From NCBI RefSeq assembly GCF_031326345.1, contig NZ_CP133671.1:4092001-4156000 (forward strand): a stretch of 64,000 nt of DNA, given 5' to 3'. The position numbers and the translations under genes are program-made. The DNA comes from Aureispira sp. CCB-E (GTDB lineage Bacteria > Bacteroidota > Bacteroidia > Chitinophagales > Saprospiraceae). Below, piece by piece: positions 25,854-33,125 of this stretch. Numbering within the stretch: the first letter of the stretch is position 1; each line of letters begins with the position of its first letter. The notes under the pieces are model-generated. The model did not search any database and had not been told where the DNA came from. It worked only from the letters and a program-made list of their open reading frames with translations.

Positions 25854-28775
25854 ATGAACTCCTTCAACTATTTTTTCACCGCTATAGTGGCATTATTTCT
25901 GCACGTCAATGCTAGTCATGCGCAAACCATTCAGCAACCTTTGCAACTGAGCTATATAGAATTGGATAGTCTTTTGCCTACTTATTACAACAAAGGCACT
26001 TACAAAAAAGCAATTCCTATTGTACAAATAGCCATCAAGAAAGCGGAAAAAGATTTTGGTCGGCAAGATTCTGTGTTTGCCAATTACATTCAATGGGGAG
26101 GGCTTCTTTATACAAAAATCGGTCAACTAGATACTGCTCTCATGCTTAGCATTCAAGCTAAAAATATTCATGAAAAAATTTTTGGAAAAGAACATTTTAA
26201 GTTCGCTTTATCGCTCAACAATTTAGCTGCTTTATATTCAGAAATGGGAAACGTTGATTTAGCACTACCTCTTTTAATTCAAGCTAAGAATATTTGGGCA
26301 AAAGCACGAGGAACAGATCATCCAGATTTTGCCTATGCACTCAATAATTTGGCCCTCTTTCATTCTGATATGGGGAATTTTGACTTAGCGCTACCGCTCT
26401 TAATTCAAGCCAAAGATATTTTCAAAAAAGCCCTAGGAGAAGAACACTCTCAGTACGCTATGTCCCTCAATGGTCTTGCTTTTTTATATCAAAATATAGG
26501 AGATGTCGATTCAGCTCTGCCTCTTTTGCTTCAAGCTAAAAGTATTTTCAAAAAAACTTTAGGAGAAGAACACCCTGAATTTGCTGTATTTTTAAACAAC
26601 TTGGCTAATCTATATTCAGAAATAGGTATTTTTGACTTGGCATTGCCTAGTTTAGTTCAAGCTACAAATATCTTTCAAAAAACGCTTGGAAAAGAACACT
26701 CAAAATTTGCACTTTCCCTTGATAATCTGGCTAATTTGCACTCTAGTATGGGAAATTTTGATTTGGCACTACCACTCCTTATTCAATCTAAAAATATTTT
26801 TCAAAAAACGCTTGGGAAAAAACATACTCGATTTAGTATGTCTCTTAATAATTTGGTGGATTTGTATCTCCAAATGGAAAATTTTGATTTGGCTTGGAAG
26901 GTGCTACAACAAGCTATGAATTCTAGTTTGGGCACTTCCCTAAAGCATACCTTCAGTCAAGAGTGGTCAGAAAATGTGATTGCAACATCTTTTCATTCCA
27001 ATGAACACATTGATAACATGATTACTTCTTTAGAGCATGCCTATTGGTTCTTGGAAAAAGATACTAGAATTGAGCATCGTACATCCAAACAAATTATAGT
27101 GGCAGATTTAGCTTTTACTCTATTATCAAAAGCCAGAAATCGAGTTTTCAACGAAAAAGACAAATTGCGAATGCTCGCAAAAAGTGACGATTGGTTACAA
27201 AGAAGCCTGCATTTGCTATCCCCTTCAAAAGATAATGAAAGGGCATTTCATCTTAGCGACCAAAACAAATCGGTGCTACTTTTGCAAGCCACTAGGTCAG
27301 AAAATGCTTATCACTTGGGTGAACTACCCAAATCTCTTATCAGAATATCCAAAGAAATACTCCGAAAACAAAGCGAACTTCAAGCTAAGTTAATGGAAAA
27401 ACGTTCTGCAAAAGAAAAAGATAGCCTTTTAAACGAATTAAATCAGATTAACCAAGAAATTAGTGATTTTGAAAAAATGCTTGAAGAAAAGTTTCCTAAA
27501 TATCACAAATTAAAGTATCAGCCAAACGATGCCAAAGTCTCCGACATCCAATCGCTTTTAGATAAACATACGGCTTTATTACAGTATGTGATTAGCGACT
27601 CTTTGGTACACATTTTTTTAGTAGATAAACAAGAAGTACGTTGGGAAAAATCATTGATTAGTCGCTCCAAATTAAAAGAACAGATCAGCATTTTGCACAA
27701 CTCCTTGAGTACGTATACCCCAATGACTCAAGAAGAACATGCTTACCAAAACTACACCCAAACCGCACATTGGTTTTATCAACACCTTATCGCTCCTGTA
27801 TTACAAAATAAGCCTAACATTTGCAACTTAATCGTTGTTAGTGATGGAGAATTAGGGCATCTACCATTCGAAGTTTTTCTAAAAACTTCCGCTTCAAAAA
27901 CGTTTATAGATTATCATAACCTTGATTATTTGGTGAATCATTATAACATTTCGTACAACCATTCTGCTGCTCTTTGGAGAGAGAACAAGGAAGCCCCTAC
28001 TCCTATGAATAATGGTCAAATTTTAGCTGTTGCTGCCAATTATAACATTCGGCTATCTTCTAAAACAGCAAACACAAGACTCCCTTCAAATCAATTACTT
28101 AGAAAAGGACTACCTCCACTTCCTTCCGCCCGTAAGGAAGTAGAAACACTACAAAAACAATATCGAGGCTTTTTTGCTTTTGATAGCATTGCTTCTGAAA
28201 AAATAGTCAAGGAAAAAGCAAGTGAGTATGCCATTCTACATTTTGCGGTTCATGGAATTTTAGATAACAAAAGACCTGTTCTTTCTTCATTAGCATTTAC
28301 AGAAGATAATGACAGCATAGAGTCTAATTTTTGGCAAGCACACGAAATATCAAAAATGCAGCTCAATGCCAATCTTGTAGTACTTTCTGCTTGTCAAACA
28401 GGTTATGGAAAGTTTGAAAAAGGAAATGGTGTAGCTTCTCTAGCCAGAGCGTTTATGTACGCAGGTGCTTCTGCTTTGATTGTTTCTCTTTGGCAAGTCA
28501 ACGATTACATTACATCTGAAATTATGAAGAACTTATATAAAAATTTGGCAAACGGTATACCCAAAGACCAAGCACTTCGACAAGCTAAATTGCAATACAT
28601 GGATTCGGTTGAAGGTTCTTTAGCCCATCCTTCCTTTTGGTCTCCTTTTATTATGATTGGAAATACCGCCCCTTTATCCATCAAAAAGAAAAACAACTTT
28701 ACTTTTTATTGGGGTACTGGACTTCTAGGTTTACTGTTGGCTGCTGGGCTCTTCTTGGTAAAAAAATCGAAGTAA
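25854..28775 (+). CDS. exported TPR-CHAT protein (caspase-like protease) with C-terminal membrane anchor
   Basis: A signal peptide (to about SHAQ, residue 24) is followed by seven or so tetratricopeptide repeats of the 42-residue kinesin-light-chain type (about 60-345; repeated LNNLA-LYSEMGNFDLALPLL-QAKNIFKK). After a coiled-coil linker (about 480-560) comes a C-terminal CHAT domain with the dyad H800 (ILHFAVHG) and C847 (VVLSACQTG), then GVASLARAFMYAGASALIVSLWQVND. The protein ends in a transmembrane helix (about 948-967) and KKSK. CHAT proteases are caspase relatives used in several bacterial immune systems. Here the topology puts the protease in the periplasm or on the surface, TPRs first. 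The target is unknown. Confidence 0.85.
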   Translation: MNSFNYFFTAIVALFLHVNASHAQTIQQPLQLSYIELDSLLPTYYNKGTYKKAIPIVQIAIKKAEKDFGRQDSVFANYIQWGGLLYTKIGQLDTALMLSIQAKNIHEKIFGKEHFKFALSLNNLAALYSEMGNVDLALPLLIQAKNIWAKARGTDHPDFAYALNNLALFHSDMGNFDLALPLLIQAKDIFKKALGEEHSQYAMSLNGLAFLYQNIGDVDSALPLLLQAKSIFKKTLGEEHPEFAVFLNNLANLYSEIGIFDLALPSLVQATNIFQKTLGKEHSKFALSLDNLANLHSSMGNFDLALPLLIQSKNIFQKTLGKKHTRFSMSLNNLVDLYLQMENFDLAWKVLQQAMNSSLGTSLKHTFSQEWSENVIATSFHSNEHIDNMITSLEHAYWFLEKDTRIEHRTSKQIIVADLAFTLLSKARNRVFNEKDKLRMLAKSDDWLQRSLHLLSPSKDNERAFHLSDQNKSVLLLQATRSENAYHLGELPKSLIRISKEILRKQSELQAKLMEKRSAKEKDSLLNELNQINQEISDFEKMLEEKFPKYHKLKYQPNDAKVSDIQSLLDKHTALLQYVISDSLVHIFLVDKQEVRWEKSLISRSKLKEQISILHNSLSTYTPMTQEEHAYQNYTQTAHWFYQHLIAPVLQNKPNICNLIVVSDGELGHLPFEVFLKTSASKTFIDYHNLDYLVNHYNISYNHSAALWRENKEAPTPMNNGQILAVAANYNIRLSSKTANTRLPSNQLLRKGLPPLPSARKEVETLQKQYRGFFAFDSIASEKIVKEKASEYAILHFAVHGILDNKRPVLSSLAFTEDNDSIESNFWQAHEISKMQLNANLVVLSACQTGYGKFEKGNGVASLARAFMYAGASALIVSLWQVNDYITSEIMKNLYKNLANGIPKDQALRQAKLQYMDSVEGSLAHPSFWSPFIMIGNTAPLSIKKKNNFTFYWGTGLLGLLLAAGLFLVKKSK

Positions 28776-28810: not shown

Positions 28811-30307
28811 TTACCCCTCTTGTAATTCTTTTTTAGGGTATAATTTTGAAAAGAACCAGCCTACAATCATTGCTATTAAAAATGAAGGTGCCAAAACATC
28901 GAGTTTCTCAAAATAAGGCCCAATGCCAGCTATATTCGCAACTACAAACTTAAAAAATGGTACACAGAGGAAGCCCGTTATCATTGAAGCAATAGCCCCT
29001 GCCTCTGAGTACCCTTTCCAAAACAGAGACAAAATAATAACAGGACAAAAAGAAGCCGCTATCCCCGACCATCCAAATATAACCATCCAAAAAACAGTTC
29101 GATTAGGAGAATTAACAGCAATAACTAAAGCTATTATCAAAGCAAGAATAGCCATTAAGAAAGTTACTCTCCTTGATATTTTTGTCAATGCTTCATCAGG
29201 GATTTCAGGATTAAATATTTTTTGGTAGAAATCTCTAGTAATTGCACTAGAAGCAATAATTAGCAGAGAATCAATCGTGGACATTATCGCAGAAAGAACC
29301 ACAGCAACATAAATTGCAACCAATACATAAGGCAAAAAGTTTTCTGTCATAATAGACAATACATCTTCCCCTGCATTTCCTAATACAAGTTCAGGATCTT
29401 GACCACTCTCCGTGAATAGTATTCTTGCTAAAATTCCAATTGTTACAGCCGCAGCATCTGTTAATAAGGTGAAAATTATTGCTACCCATTTTCCCTTATC
29501 TATCTCCGCTTCGTCCTTAATTGACATAAAACGAACGTATACTTGAGGAGATCCCAAAAAACCTAAGCCAATCATAGCAAAGCCCAGCATAGTAGCAACG
29601 TTCATCCAAACATCATCGCTTGTCCCCCATATATTGGTCAAAGCAGGATCTATACTATTTAGGCTATTGATAATTCCTGCGCTCCCATCCATCGAAAAAT
29701 AAACGACTACCGGTAGTAATAACAATCCAAAAAACATCAAAAGCCCTTGAAATAAATCCGACCATACTGCTGCTACAAATCCTCCAATAAAGATATAAGT
29801 CAATACAATAAAGAAACCAAGAATTGCTCCTGTGTAATAGTTCATACCGAGCATCGACTCAAACGCTTTCCCTGTGACATCTATTTGAGAGCTCACGTAG
29901 ATGATAACAAAAATTGAAAGAATTGTTGAGGCTAAAACTCGAAGTGTTTTTGTTTTTGCTTTAAAATGTTCCTCCAAATAATCAGGAATTGTAATTGCGT
30001 GATAGGCATCTGTTTTCCTTTTAAATCGTTTGGCCATCAAACCCCAAGATATTGCTACACCCAAAACTTCTCCAACAACGACCCAATAAGTCGATAAACC
30101 AGAAATAGCTCCCATTCCTGTCAAACCTATCAATAGCCACCCTGACTCGCCTGTTGCTCTAGCTGAAAAAGCAACCGCCCAAAATCCCATATTTTTTCCA
30201 CCTACATAAAAATCACTCATACTTTTCACTCTGCGAGAGGCAAAGTATCCAATAAGAAATAAAATAATGACATAAAGCCCTAAGGCTATCAATTTAGAAA
30301 TTTCCAT
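28811..30307 (-). CDS. sodium:solute symporter (SSS family, PutP-like)
   Basis: The 498-residue protein has about 13 membrane helices in the SSS arrangement. The N-terminal FYVGGKNMGFWAVAFSARATGESGWLLIGLTG is close to sodium/proline symporters, and the sodium-site helix VVLSAIMSTIDSLLIIASSAITRDFY is typical. It lies 93 bp downstream of the decarboxylase on the same strand and is probably co-transcribed. Given that neighbourhood it could import cysteine, a sulfinate or export/import an osmolyte such as taurine; family membership alone supports proline or a related amino acid. No odd features. Confidence 0.85.
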   Translation of the reverse strand: MEISKLIALGLYVIILFLIGYFASRRVKSMSDFYVGGKNMGFWAVAFSARATGESGWLLIGLTGMGAISGLSTYWVVVGEVLGVAISWGLMAKRFKRKTDAYHAITIPDYLEEHFKAKTKTLRVLASTILSIFVIIYVSSQIDVTGKAFESMLGMNYYTGAILGFFIVLTYIFIGGFVAAVWSDLFQGLLMFFGLLLLPVVVYFSMDGSAGIINSLNSIDPALTNIWGTSDDVWMNVATMLGFAMIGLGFLGSPQVYVRFMSIKDEAEIDKGKWVAIIFTLLTDAAAVTIGILARILFTESGQDPELVLGNAGEDVLSIMTENFLPYVLVAIYVAVVLSAIMSTIDSLLIIASSAITRDFYQKIFNPEIPDEALTKISRRVTFLMAILALIIALVIAVNSPNRTVFWMVIFGWSGIAASFCPVIILSLFWKGYSEAGAIASMITGFLCVPFFKFVVANIAGIGPYFEKLDVLAPSFLIAMIVGWFFSKLYPKKELQEG

Positions 30308-30400
30308 AAGTTGAGTTATTTATTGGTGAAAGCAATTGTTGAAAATATTTTATTTTTTGTCTAAATACTCCAACAATTGCTTAATAGGATTTCACTAAAA

Positions 30401-31786
30401 TTAAGTTGTTGCCTCCAAACTGAATAAATTGTGATTGACGGCTACAAATTGCTCTAGTTTCTCAAAGAAATTTAAAATATCTTGATGGTCATTTTGAGCA
30501 TTAATTGTTACTAATCGTATAAACTCATCTCCTTGAAAAGTACCATAACCTACTAGTAACTCTGAGTGTTCGTACAATAACGTACAAATATCACGCGCAG
30601 GAATTCCCTTATAGTTAAAACAAATAGCAATCGAATTGTCATAACTATACATTTCGTAATCTTTATGATTACGAACATATTCACGAGCGGTATCTGCCAA
30701 GGCAAACTGATGATCTACAATTTTCTCTAAACCTGATGTTCCTACGCTTTTCCAAAGCGTCCAGAATTTTAGAGCATCGTTTCTTCGTCCGCATTGTAAA
30801 GACGTTTTTCCTAAATTAAATTCATCGTGATCTGTTTGATACAAATAACTAGCATCATTAGAGAAAGAATTGTATAGGTGCTTTTTATCTTTTGCAACTA
30901 TAATGGAGCAAGACAATGGAGTGCCTATCATTTTATGTGCATTAAAACTAAACGAATCAACCAATTCGATTCCATCGATCAAATGCCTATACTTTTTGCT
31001 AAACAAGGTAGAGCCGCAGTACGCTCCATCAACGTGAAGCCACATATTATATTTTTTGCAAATTTCGCTCACAGGGCGAATTGGGTCAAAAGCTCCCAAC
31101 ACAGTAGTACCAGCAGTTAGGTTTACCATAATTGGGATGCCTCCATTTTGCACATCTTGCTCTATTTGTTCTTTCAAGCTAGTAACATCTAGTTCTCCTT
31201 TTTCGTTGGTAGGAATATAGCGAACATTGTCTCGACCTATCCCACAGAAAGCTGCGTTTTTAGGAATGCTATAATGCGATTCTTTTGAGGTATAAACCAT
31301 CATTTTTTGTTGAACACCTTGATATTTCACAGTAGCAATGGCTGCATCTCTAGCCATCAACATAGACATAAAATTAGTCATAGACCCTCCTGGCACTAGA
31401 GTGCCGTCTGCATTTTTGTCCCAACCTATCATATCGCACACTTCTCTTAAGATAACCTTTTCTACCCCAATCTGTGGACCAGCCGCTTTATAAGTATACA
31501 TGCTGTTATTCAAAATCACAGATAGCAATTCTCCTAAAATAGCTTTGTCATTTCTACCACCAAACAATTGATTAAAAAAGCCATTCGTTGCCGTTCTTGG
31601 CGAAGCAAAAACCAACTCCTTTACTATTTTTTCAAATTCATCTTCATCCAAAGGAGTATCCTTAAGCGATAAATCAAGTGTCTTAAATAGTTCAGAAGAT
31701 GGGATATATTGAGTGACAGGATTTTCCTTTTCGTCCTTCAAGAGGTCATTTGTTATTCTTTGAAATAAATCAAGTGTATTTTTCAT
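30401..31786 (-). CDS. PLP-dependent decarboxylase, probably cysteine sulfinate decarboxylase
   Basis: This is a group II decarboxylase with the full signature: FFNQLFGGRN, PGGSMTNF, H171 in TSKESHYSI (stacks on PLP), HVDGAY (D253 binds the pyridine) and K285 in FSFNAHKMIGTPLSCS (Schiff base). ATNGFFNQLF, ASYLYQTD and QCGRRNDALKFWTLWK match animal CSAD/GAD enzymes closely. Specificity between cysteine sulfinate, aspartate and glutamate cannot be read from motifs. A cysteine dioxygenase encoded divergently 161 bp away makes cysteine sulfinate the best candidate, giving hypotaurine. It is first in a putative operon with the symporter. Confidence 0.8.
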   Translation of the reverse strand: MKNTLDLFQRITNDLLKDEKENPVTQYIPSSELFKTLDLSLKDTPLDEDEFEKIVKELVFASPRTATNGFFNQLFGGRNDKAILGELLSVILNNSMYTYKAAGPQIGVEKVILREVCDMIGWDKNADGTLVPGGSMTNFMSMLMARDAAIATVKYQGVQQKMMVYTSKESHYSIPKNAAFCGIGRDNVRYIPTNEKGELDVTSLKEQIEQDVQNGGIPIMVNLTAGTTVLGAFDPIRPVSEICKKYNMWLHVDGAYCGSTLFSKKYRHLIDGIELVDSFSFNAHKMIGTPLSCSIIVAKDKKHLYNSFSNDASYLYQTDHDEFNLGKTSLQCGRRNDALKFWTLWKSVGTSGLEKIVDHQFALADTAREYVRNHKDYEMYSYDNSIAICFNYKGIPARDICTLLYEHSELLVGYGTFQGDEFIRLVTINAQNDHQDILNFFEKLEQFVAVNHNLFSLEATT

Positions 31787-31802
31787 CAGAAAAAAGTTTA
31801 AA

Positions 31803-31898
31803 TCACTAAAAAATTAAGTTTTTTTAGTGAAAATCAATTTAACTATTATTTTAGATTGGCAAATTTAGAAAAAATATCTGTTTTTTTTGCTATTTTTG
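31803..31898. promoter_or_regulatory. divergent promoter region with A/T palindrome (decarboxylase / cysteine dioxygenase)
   Basis: TCACTAAAAAA (31803-31813) pairs with TTTTTTAGTGA (31820-31830), a perfect 11-bp inverted repeat around six bases. A minus-strand -7 element TAAATTTG lies at 31867-31860 for the decarboxylase and a plus-strand TATTTTTG at 31891-31898 for the dioxygenase, so the two promoters are back to back. No good -33 box was found for either. An AT-rich palindrome at this position is a reasonable operator for the Lrp/AsnC-type regulator encoded just downstream. Confidence 0.5.
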
Positions 31899-31947
31899 GC
31901 GAAATGCAACTTTTAGTCAGCTACAAAAAAATTACAACTAATTTAAT

Positions 31948-32484
31948 ATGAATCATATCACTACTATTGCACAACTAACCCAAATTTTAGATCAAGCTTC
32001 TCCTGCTGAATGTTCAAAAATCATGAAAAGAATCAGGATAGATACCTCTGAATTGGAACATTGTGCAACATGGTCTGATCAATCTTACACCCGAAATTGT
32101 TTGGCTAGAAATAAAAAATATGAGTTAATTCTATTGTGTTGGGATATTGGAGCCAAAACACCAATACACGACCACGGTGGGAAAGATTGTTGGGTCTATC
32201 AAATACAAGGAACAATACAAGAAACTCGATACCAAGCATTCAATTTACGATTAAAAGAAACCCATCAGATGACATTATCTGCTCAAAAACTAACCTATAT
32301 GAATGACAGCATGGGATATCATGCTCTAGAAAACATTGCCAACCAACGAGCAATGACACTTCACATCTATGTATCCCCGATTGATGTTTGCGAAGTATTT
32401 AATACACAAAAAGGTTGCTTTGAAACAAAAAAAATGTCTTACCATACCCATCAAGAAAAGAACACGAGTATGTTAGTTTCTTAA
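31948..32484 (+). CDS. cysteine dioxygenase type I, with Cys-Tyr cofactor pair
   Basis: This is a cupin enzyme that oxidises L-cysteine to cysteine sulfinate with Fe(II) and O2. Iron ligands are H74 and H76 (PIHDHGG) and H125 (GYHALEN). Substrate residues Y47 and R49 (SYTRN) correspond to rat Y58 and R60. C81 and Y141 (LHIYVSP) match rat C93 and Y157, which form a thioether cofactor in mammals. Most bacterial CDOs have glycine at the first position, so this one looks eukaryote-like. The 178-residue length is normal. It is divergent from the decarboxylase and upstream of the Lrp-type gene. Confidence 0.9.
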   Translation: MNHITTIAQLTQILDQASPAECSKIMKRIRIDTSELEHCATWSDQSYTRNCLARNKKYELILLCWDIGAKTPIHDHGGKDCWVYQIQGTIQETRYQAFNLRLKETHQMTLSAQKLTYMNDSMGYHALENIANQRAMTLHIYVSPIDVCEVFNTQKGCFETKKMSYHTHQEKNTSMLVS

Positions 32485-32648
32485 ACAAATATTTTGTCTT
32501 TAGATTGCAAAACATTCTCTACTCACTTGCCTAATTTTTTTTCTTTTTGATTACCTTTAATAGTCGTTTGCAGTTTAAATAGTGATTTTCTACTGAAACT
32601 CAGACAAGTTTTACGGATTGTTCATCTAAAGAAAATATTTTACTATTA

Positions 32649-33125
32649 ATGAATCAGATTGATTTAAAAATTCTTGATATGCTTCAAAGCAATTCTGGTA
32701 GAACAGCCAAAGAAATGGCAACAGAATTGTCTTTAACCACTACTCCCGTTTACGAACGCATCAAGAAATTAGAAAAAGCAGGATATATTAAACAATATGT
32801 TGCTTTGCTGAATACAGATTTGCTTCATAAAAACATTATTGTTTTTATGAACATCACTATCAAAGACCATTATAAAGAAGTACGAGATAAGTTCGTAAAA
32901 AGTATGGAATCTCTAGATGAAGTATCTGAGTTTTATCACACATCGGGAAGTTTTGACTTTTTGGCTAAAGTGAGGTTTGCAAATATTAAAGAGTATAGAG
33001 ATTTTTTAGTCAATGAAGTTGCAGCTATTCGAAACATCAGCGACATTGATAGCCAAATTGTTTTAGAAGAAATCAAGTACTCGACAAAAGTCAAACTTAG
33101 CGGTTTGAACAAAGAAAAAGAATAG
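32649..33125 (+). CDS. Lrp/AsnC-family transcription regulator
   Basis: An N-terminal winged helix-turn-helix (IDLKILDMLQSNSGRTAKEMATELSLTTTPVYERIKKLEKAGYI, described by residues 4-48) is followed by a RAM ligand domain ending near 145 with the VSEFYHTSGSFDFLAKV beta-hairpin. The family binds amino acids and controls their metabolism. Its place directly after cysteine dioxygenase suggests it responds to cysteine or a derivative and acts on the palindrome between the two divergent enzymes. A strong terminator follows. Confidence 0.92.
   Translation: MNQIDLKILDMLQSNSGRTAKEMATELSLTTTPVYERIKKLEKAGYIKQYVALLNTDLLHKNIIVFMNITIKDHYKEVRDKFVKSMESLDEVSEFYHTSGSFDFLAKVRFANIKEYRDFLVNEVAAIRNISDIDSQIVLEEIKYSTKVKLSGLNKEKE

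Follow-up and report, generated by a model that had tools for sequence, protein, structure and literature searches.

In 2013, Agnello et al. (ACS Chem Biol) reportedly described a bacterial taurine pathway consisting of a cysteine dioxygenase (CDO) and a cysteine sulfinate decarboxylase (CSAD), including the CSAD of Synechococcus sp. PCC 7335. Their work is also said to have found the genes in operons, to have noted the linkage of bacterial CSAD with bacterial CDO, and to have defined a decarboxylase selectivity motif, X1-aa19-X2-aa-X3. Two later papers, both of which cite that study, give the CDO/CSAD taurine route as published for bacteria (PMC8153620; PMC12585060), and one names marine cyanobacteria and marine flavobacteria for it (PMC12585060). 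Here, we analyzed a locus at positions 28811-33125 of a 64,000-nucleotide stretch (hereafter the window) from Aureispira sp. CCB-E, contig NZ_CP133671.1. The window genome (G000) comprises 7.39 Mb in two contigs, and Aureispira is placed in the Saprospiraceae. Judging from its sequence, the locus is quite probably a hypotaurine-making module, and it is as such a further example of a bacterial route known since 2013.

Four genes make up the locus, two on the minus strand, for a symporter and a decarboxylase, and two on the plus strand, for a CDO and an Lrp/AsnC regulator (Table 1). An earlier reading, made from the letters alone (the sequence-only reading), had proposed exactly this content, and Pfam matches confirmed all four genes in place. 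It had also described the two enzymes as divergently encoded around a palindrome; a perfect 11-bp inverted repeat indeed lies in the 161-bp intergenic space between them. The symporter gene shares the strand of the decarboxylase gene and lies 93 bp downstream of it. In the mechanism we propose, CDO, using Fe(II) and O2, would oxidize cysteine to cysteine sulfinate, and the CSAD-type decarboxylase, with pyridoxal phosphate (PLP), would remove CO2 to yield hypotaurine, which would be either the end product or oxidized elsewhere in the cell. The two enzymes would be transcribed divergently from their common intergenic space, and we also infer co-transcription and co-regulation. The symporter would move a pathway solute with sodium, our first guess being re-uptake of taurine or hypotaurine and our second uptake of a precursor, and the product may accumulate as a compatible solute. 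The same two-step conversion had been suggested by the sequence-only reading, and the CSAD-type selectivity residues, the CDO active-site residues, and the keeping of the pair beyond the window genome all argue for it.

Overall similarity did not identify the decarboxylase. The protein is 36.0% identical to human CSAD, 36.8% to mouse GADL1, and 37.1% to human GAD1, so that its description in the sequence-only reading as very close to animal CSAD did not hold. In a phmmer search against the PDB, GADL1 (282 bits), CSAD (272), the glutamate decarboxylase (GAD) GAD1 (264), and GAD2 (249) stood ahead of the next chain (189). The predicted model had a mean predicted local distance difference test score of 78.8, with low values at about residues 65-78 and 93-102, where the selectivity residues sit; it matched GAD, CSAD, and GADL1 at Z 35-36, and further group II decarboxylases matched it as well or almost as well. 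As CSAD, GADL1, and GAD1 tie in both identity and fold match, we rejected overall similarity as an identifier. No NCBIfam model exceeded its cut-off either, the GAD model TIGR01788 scoring 22.8 bits against a cut-off of 380.4.

The selectivity residues were more informative. Three active-site positions govern GAD/CSAD selectivity, and the CSAD of Synechococcus PCC 7335 has been produced and purified (PMC8153620); a pocket Tyr in GADL1 versus Phe in CSAD suffices for the difference in specificity (PMC7367687). The window decarboxylase carries the triad F75-aa19-S95-aa-Y97, identical to that of human CSAD (2jis). By alignment, GAD1 reads Ser/Asn/Phe and GADL1 reads Tyr/Ser/Tyr, and the window protein differs from both. 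Among the features that we compared, only these residues single out CSAD. A glutamate decarboxylase identity is not supported: the triad is F/S/Y instead of Ser-Asn-Phe, and the TIGR01788 score is far below its cut-off. K285, H171, and D253 were kept in all 101 non-outgroup rows aligned; we take K285 to be the PLP lysine on the basis of the N-x-H-K motif, and the catalytic roles of H171 and D253 are assumed likewise.

To place the decarboxylase among its homologs, we used a quick maximum-likelihood tree of 100 rows, five others having been dropped beforehand (two duplicates, two fragments, and one outgroup). Animal enzymes were represented by three rows and cyanobacteria by none, and the tree carried long-branch warnings. 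The three animal enzymes formed one clade outside the Bacteroidota clade. We therefore rejected a recent transfer from animals, with only three animal rows behind that placement. Eleven alphaproteobacterial rows (L083, L094-L097, L106, L107, L111, L113, L117, and L120, from Kordiimonas, Hellea, Algimonas, and others) formed one starred set (97) inside the Bacteroidota sequences. This nesting points to acquisition of their decarboxylase by horizontal transfer from Bacteroidota. No CDO_I match was found in the eleven genomes. A sister group of the decarboxylase (L038, L039, and L040, from genomes G006, G001, and G004) is 41-42% identical, reads F/T/H, and has no adjacent CDO.

The CDO is 31% identical to human CDO1 and is the sole CDO_I match of the window genome at E 0.001. 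In an alignment with human CDO1, Arg60, His86, His88, Cys93, His140, and Tyr157 are kept as R49, H74, H76, C81, H125, and Y141; the predicted Fe ligands are H74, H76, and H125, and the Cys81-Tyr141 pair is present. Across 51 CDO rows from the module and its relatives (some of them duplicates, with L068 cut and L048 left out), Arg60 and His86 were present in 51 of 51, and the other checked residues in 50 of 50 readable rows. Against the PDB, the protein scored 84.7 bits with human CDO1, 34.5 with 3eqe, 34.4 with 4qm8, and 14.6 (E 0.21) with 3-mercaptopropionate dioxygenase; we take 3eqe and 4qm8 to be bacterial chains. The kept Cys of the Cys-Tyr pair, together with these scores, places the CDO nearer the eukaryotic type, with a predicted Cys-Tyr cofactor site. 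Arg-type cysteine dioxygenases are distinguished from Gln-type mercaptopropionate dioxygenases, and bacterial CDO forms work with unmodified Tyr (PMC8050391). Since all checked residues are kept, Arg60 included, the window CDO is assigned to the Arg type and not to the Gln type. The Cys at position 93 is not unique to the CDO group of the module: among six readable other Bacteroidota homologs, two have Cys (L050 and L051) and four have Gly (L052, L055, L151, and L153), in a comparison that excludes L048, L049, L054, and the long proteins L053 and L152.

The pair recurs well beyond Aureispira. A scan of a genome collection found at least 507 stretches encoding a decarboxylase relative (two may share one gene), and the analysis went on with the best 80 loci. 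A CDO lies directly divergent upstream of the decarboxylase in 39 of the 80; in five of the 41 loci without an adjacent CDO, the upstream sequence runs to under 1500 bp. All 39 linked decarboxylases read F/S/Y, and the other 41 comprise 31 F/S/Y, five F/S/A, four Y/S/Y, and one fragment (Fisher P = 0.0024, fragment excluded). Among 60 relatives, seven have a close decarboxylase (at least 53% identity), and in six of these seven the genome also encodes a close CDO, with a score of at least 139 bits. The close pair is adjacent and divergent in G000, G012, and G035 and adjacent on the same strand in G007 and G024, while the CDO of G031 lies elsewhere. In the other 53 relatives, G006 has an equally close CDO and G046 has one at 110 bits. 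Across 395 Bacteroidota genomes, a close decarboxylase occurs in eight (a ninth match stands at 37%) and a CDO_I match in nine (eight over the family cut-off). Six genomes have both enzymes, adjacent by coordinates in every case, and a CDO occurs in three of the 387 without a close decarboxylase (Fisher P = 4.6 × 10−10). The sequence-only reading had called this route not common in bacteria. That stands for Bacteroidota, with eight carriers among the 395 sampled genomes; for bacteria at large, the route is already published, and decarboxylase relatives are encoded in the at least 507 stretches above.

Several observations weigh against this reading. The Fisher value for the 395 genomes counts kin, since all sampled Bacteroidota carriers of the close decarboxylase except the window genome come from a single family. 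A genome-wide CDO_I search, in which four linked genomes served as positive controls and were all found, gave no match in 34 of the 41 genomes without an adjacent CDO and a match in the other seven. Many of the 34 are metagenome-assembled genomes. Still, 24 of them read F/S/Y, including isolates of Patiriisocius, Ulvibacter, Aureisphaera, and Kordiimonas, which implies that the decarboxylase can serve without CDO. Such genomes may import cysteine sulfinate, or their enzyme may decarboxylate a different substrate; CSAD and GADL1 enzymes also accept aspartate. Tree-based independent-pair tests of the motif and of the symporter against CDO had five and seven usable pairs on starred branches, too few for significance (median P = 0.5 in both). 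We also considered whether the CDO-free decarboxylase genes have another sulfur route next to them, and rejected this, as none was found among ten recurrent neighbor clusters annotated: a helix-turn-helix protein, a matchless 138-aa protein, a type IX secretion system plug protein, a glycosyltransferase, HisRS, NqrA, an ABC1/UbiB-like kinase, a polyhydroxybutyrate-depolymerase-like esterase, DUF3667, and an M14 peptidase.

The sodium symporter extends the pair. In 22 of the best 80 loci, a homolog 70-88% identical to it begins 1-158 bp downstream of the decarboxylase; these are 20 of the 39 CDO-linked loci and two of the 41 others, both of which are cut off upstream (Fisher P = 2.6 × 10−6). 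The other 19 linked loci yielded no such homolog, nor did nine relative regions, some of which are ended by contig ends. Its best NCBIfam match is the sodium/proline symporter PutP model TIGR02121, at 346.6 bits against a cut-off of 515.5; a PutP identity is not supported by this equivalog score, and the protein does pass the SSF superfamily cut-off of TIGR00813 (237 versus 184). Given its linkage with CDO and the decarboxylase, a pathway solute is the best guess for the cargo, and the recurrent symporter is most likely the third gene of the module, as the putative carrier of that solute. No locus joining a symporter with CDO and taurine biosynthesis in flavobacteria appeared in the literature searched, which covered titles and abstract openings and left subscription papers mostly outside. 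Nor was one seen among the items listed on CDO, CSAD, and taurine in bacteria and Bacteroidetes, a search not aimed at symporters. The symporter link is possibly novel. In Aureispira sp. CCB-QB1 (L056), the symporter gene is short by about 980 bp (L056:7635-7670 versus window 29154-30132), and the junction shows a short shared repeat; this gap may be a strain-level loss or a draft-assembly fault.

Hypotaurine might be made for a role other than that of an osmolyte, such as an antioxidant, a sulfide/sulfite buffer, or a building block. This is possible, if somewhat doubtful. It is favored by the O2 requirement of CDO and by the content of the locus, in which no dedicated taurine-forming gene was recognized and no tie to salinity was seen. 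The use of taurine as an osmolyte, raised by the sequence-only reading, found no support in the analysis. Against it, the recurrent symporter fits an accumulated and recaptured solute better, with its cargo being only a guess. Mammalian FMO1 oxidizes hypotaurine, and the window genome does encode an unlinked flavin monooxygenase (FMO)-like protein (G000:C1:1291195) that scores 164 bits against PDB flavin monooxygenases and 155 bits against ancestral FMO1, below the NCBIfam cut-offs. A dissimilatory role by way of sulfoacetaldehyde acetyltransferase (Xsc) is weakly opposed by a search of 35 decarboxylase genomes, the window genome included, in which nothing passed the family cut-off; none of the controls had a true Xsc. 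Sub-cut-off matches occurred in 25 of the 35 and in all 14 control genomes, and these presumably are thiamine-diphosphate-enzyme paralogs. The window genome, like nine others of the 35, has no Xsc-model match even at E 0.001, unlike all 14 controls. Like those nine, it may have no enzymes of the acetolactate synthase type and have to obtain branched-chain amino acids from outside.

Alternatively, like GADL1 and insect ADC, the decarboxylase could act chiefly or additionally as an aspartate 1-decarboxylase and supply beta-alanine, with CDO serving cysteine disposal. We consider this unlikely. The 31 F/S/Y rows without an adjacent CDO are compatible with it, and PanD is absent in 19 of 66 tested decarboxylase genomes from the 80 loci. 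PanC is kept in 15 of these 19, which calls for another source of beta-alanine. Four Brumimicrobium genomes even combine the absence of CDO and PanD with a GADL1-like Y/S/Y triad. However, the window genome has PanD (E 1.5 × 10−52) as well as PanC, and its decarboxylase, reading F/S/Y rather than Y/S/Y, is not required for beta-alanine. PanD is missing in nine of 26 CDO-linked genomes versus 10 of 40 others (L097, with only a short PanD fragment, was counted as positive), independently of CDO status; we accordingly rejected the idea that PanD loss follows CDO loss. Eleven of the 60 relatives lack PanD whatever their decarboxylase, and all seven tested decarboxylase genomes of the phylum sample have it.

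The Brumimicrobium lineage deserves mention in its own right. Its four genomes (L088, L092, L099, and L116) keep PanC, and their Y/S/Y decarboxylase is a candidate PanD replacement. Their sister rows, L075 and L076, are without PanD and have kept CDO and F/S/Y. Because the Y/S/Y triad and the absence of CDO and PanD occur together in one lineage, they count as one event; Y/S/Y also occurs in a row from G175, a genome with PanD and no CDO. We treat a switch to beta-alanine supply here as a lead and not as a result. Among the literature titles listed, none described a CSAD-type enzyme replacing PanD, and the combination of CDO and PanD absence with the GADL1-type Tyr is possibly novel. The lineage offers a test case for one pocket residue possibly re-purposing the decarboxylase toward vitamin synthesis. 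A bolder proposal would make the symporter a dedicated sodium-driven taurine/hypotaurine carrier, completing a three-gene make-and-recapture unit in Bacteroidota, and would have a Phe-to-Tyr switch, along with the loss of CDO and PanD, turn the Brumimicrobium enzyme to beta-alanine supply for coenzyme A; taken together, we regard these two steps as speculative and more probably wrong than right.

A CDO that feeds cysteine catabolism, with transamination turning most of the cysteine sulfinate into pyruvate and sulfite and hypotaurine arising as a side product, would follow the general chemistry of cysteine sulfinate (PMC4019311), and we find it highly improbable, as the recurrent partner of CDO is an F/S/Y decarboxylase, divergent or on the same strand, and no aminotransferase is among the ten annotated neighbor clusters.

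The remaining elements of the locus appear local to Aureispira. The closest named genome, that of Aureispira sp. CCB-QB1, has a 100% identical decarboxylase (genome scan, best 80 loci) and is 99.2-99.6% identical to the window over three aligned DNA pieces. Even with up to three mismatches allowed, the window contains the inverted repeat a single time, against a chance expectation of 0.00. Among the spacers of the 39 linked loci, two of which are cut or 8 bp long, this palindrome occurred only in the other Aureispira, and no linked-locus spacer beyond Aureispira held a perfect inverted repeat with arms longer than 9 bp. The k-mers common over 38 spacers were A-tracts, at or slightly above shuffle level. 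Similarly, over the 80 loci and nine relative regions, an Lrp homolog adjoins the pair only in the other Aureispira locus, a 26% identical match in L119 apart. We therefore rejected both the palindrome as a conserved operator, seen as it is in one of the 39 linked spacers, and the Lrp gene as a part of the system. Adjoining the symporter, window 25854-28775 encodes a 973-aa protein with, by eye, tetratricopeptide-like repeats and a CHAT-like C-terminal end, also present in L056.

Table 1. Features of the putative hypotaurine locus in the window
Feature	Position	Strand	Evidence or remark
SSF/SSS family sodium:solute symporter, 498 aa	28811-30307	-	Pfam SSF, E 6e-78, 262.9 bits
Group II PLP decarboxylase, CSAD type (predicted), 461 aa	30401-31786	-	Pfam Pyridoxal_deC (PF00282), E 8e-82
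Perfect inverted repeat, 11-bp arms, 6-bp middle	31803-31813/31820-31830		Candidate operator, seen only in Aureispira
Type I cysteine dioxygenase (CDO), 178 aa	31948-32484	+	Pfam CDO_I, E 2e-25, 89.6 bits (cut-off 23)
Lrp/AsnC family regulator, 158 aa	32649-33125	+	Pfam AsnC_trans_reg; neighbor, not a conserved part of the module

Marine prokaryotes draw on taurine as a major source of carbon and energy, and it is known as an osmolyte of marine animals and algae (PMC6647121; PMC7891661). If our reading is right, a hypotaurine module in many Bacteroidota would add bacterial sources, and the decarboxylase of marine-named Alphaproteobacteria such as Kordiimonas would likewise do so.

Compared with known systems, the window decarboxylase resembles animal CSAD, GADL1, and GAD (PDB 2jis, 6enz, and 2okj) in its group II PLP fold and catalytic residues, and shares its selectivity triad with CSAD; it differs in being only 36-37% identical to each, with the animal enzymes in a clade of their own outside the bacterial one. 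PutP-type sodium/proline symporters of the SSS family provide the nearest model for the window symporter, which nevertheless falls under their cut-off and, unlike them, is linked with the putative hypotaurine genes. As a whole, the locus resembles the bacterial CDO/CSAD pathway of Synechococcus sp. PCC 7335, which likewise belongs to marine bacteria and combines a CDO with a group II decarboxylase bearing F-aa19-S-aa-Y. The window locus departs from it in its Saprospiraceae host, in the sodium symporter behind the decarboxylase, and in a CDO that keeps the Cys of the eukaryotic Cys-Tyr pair.

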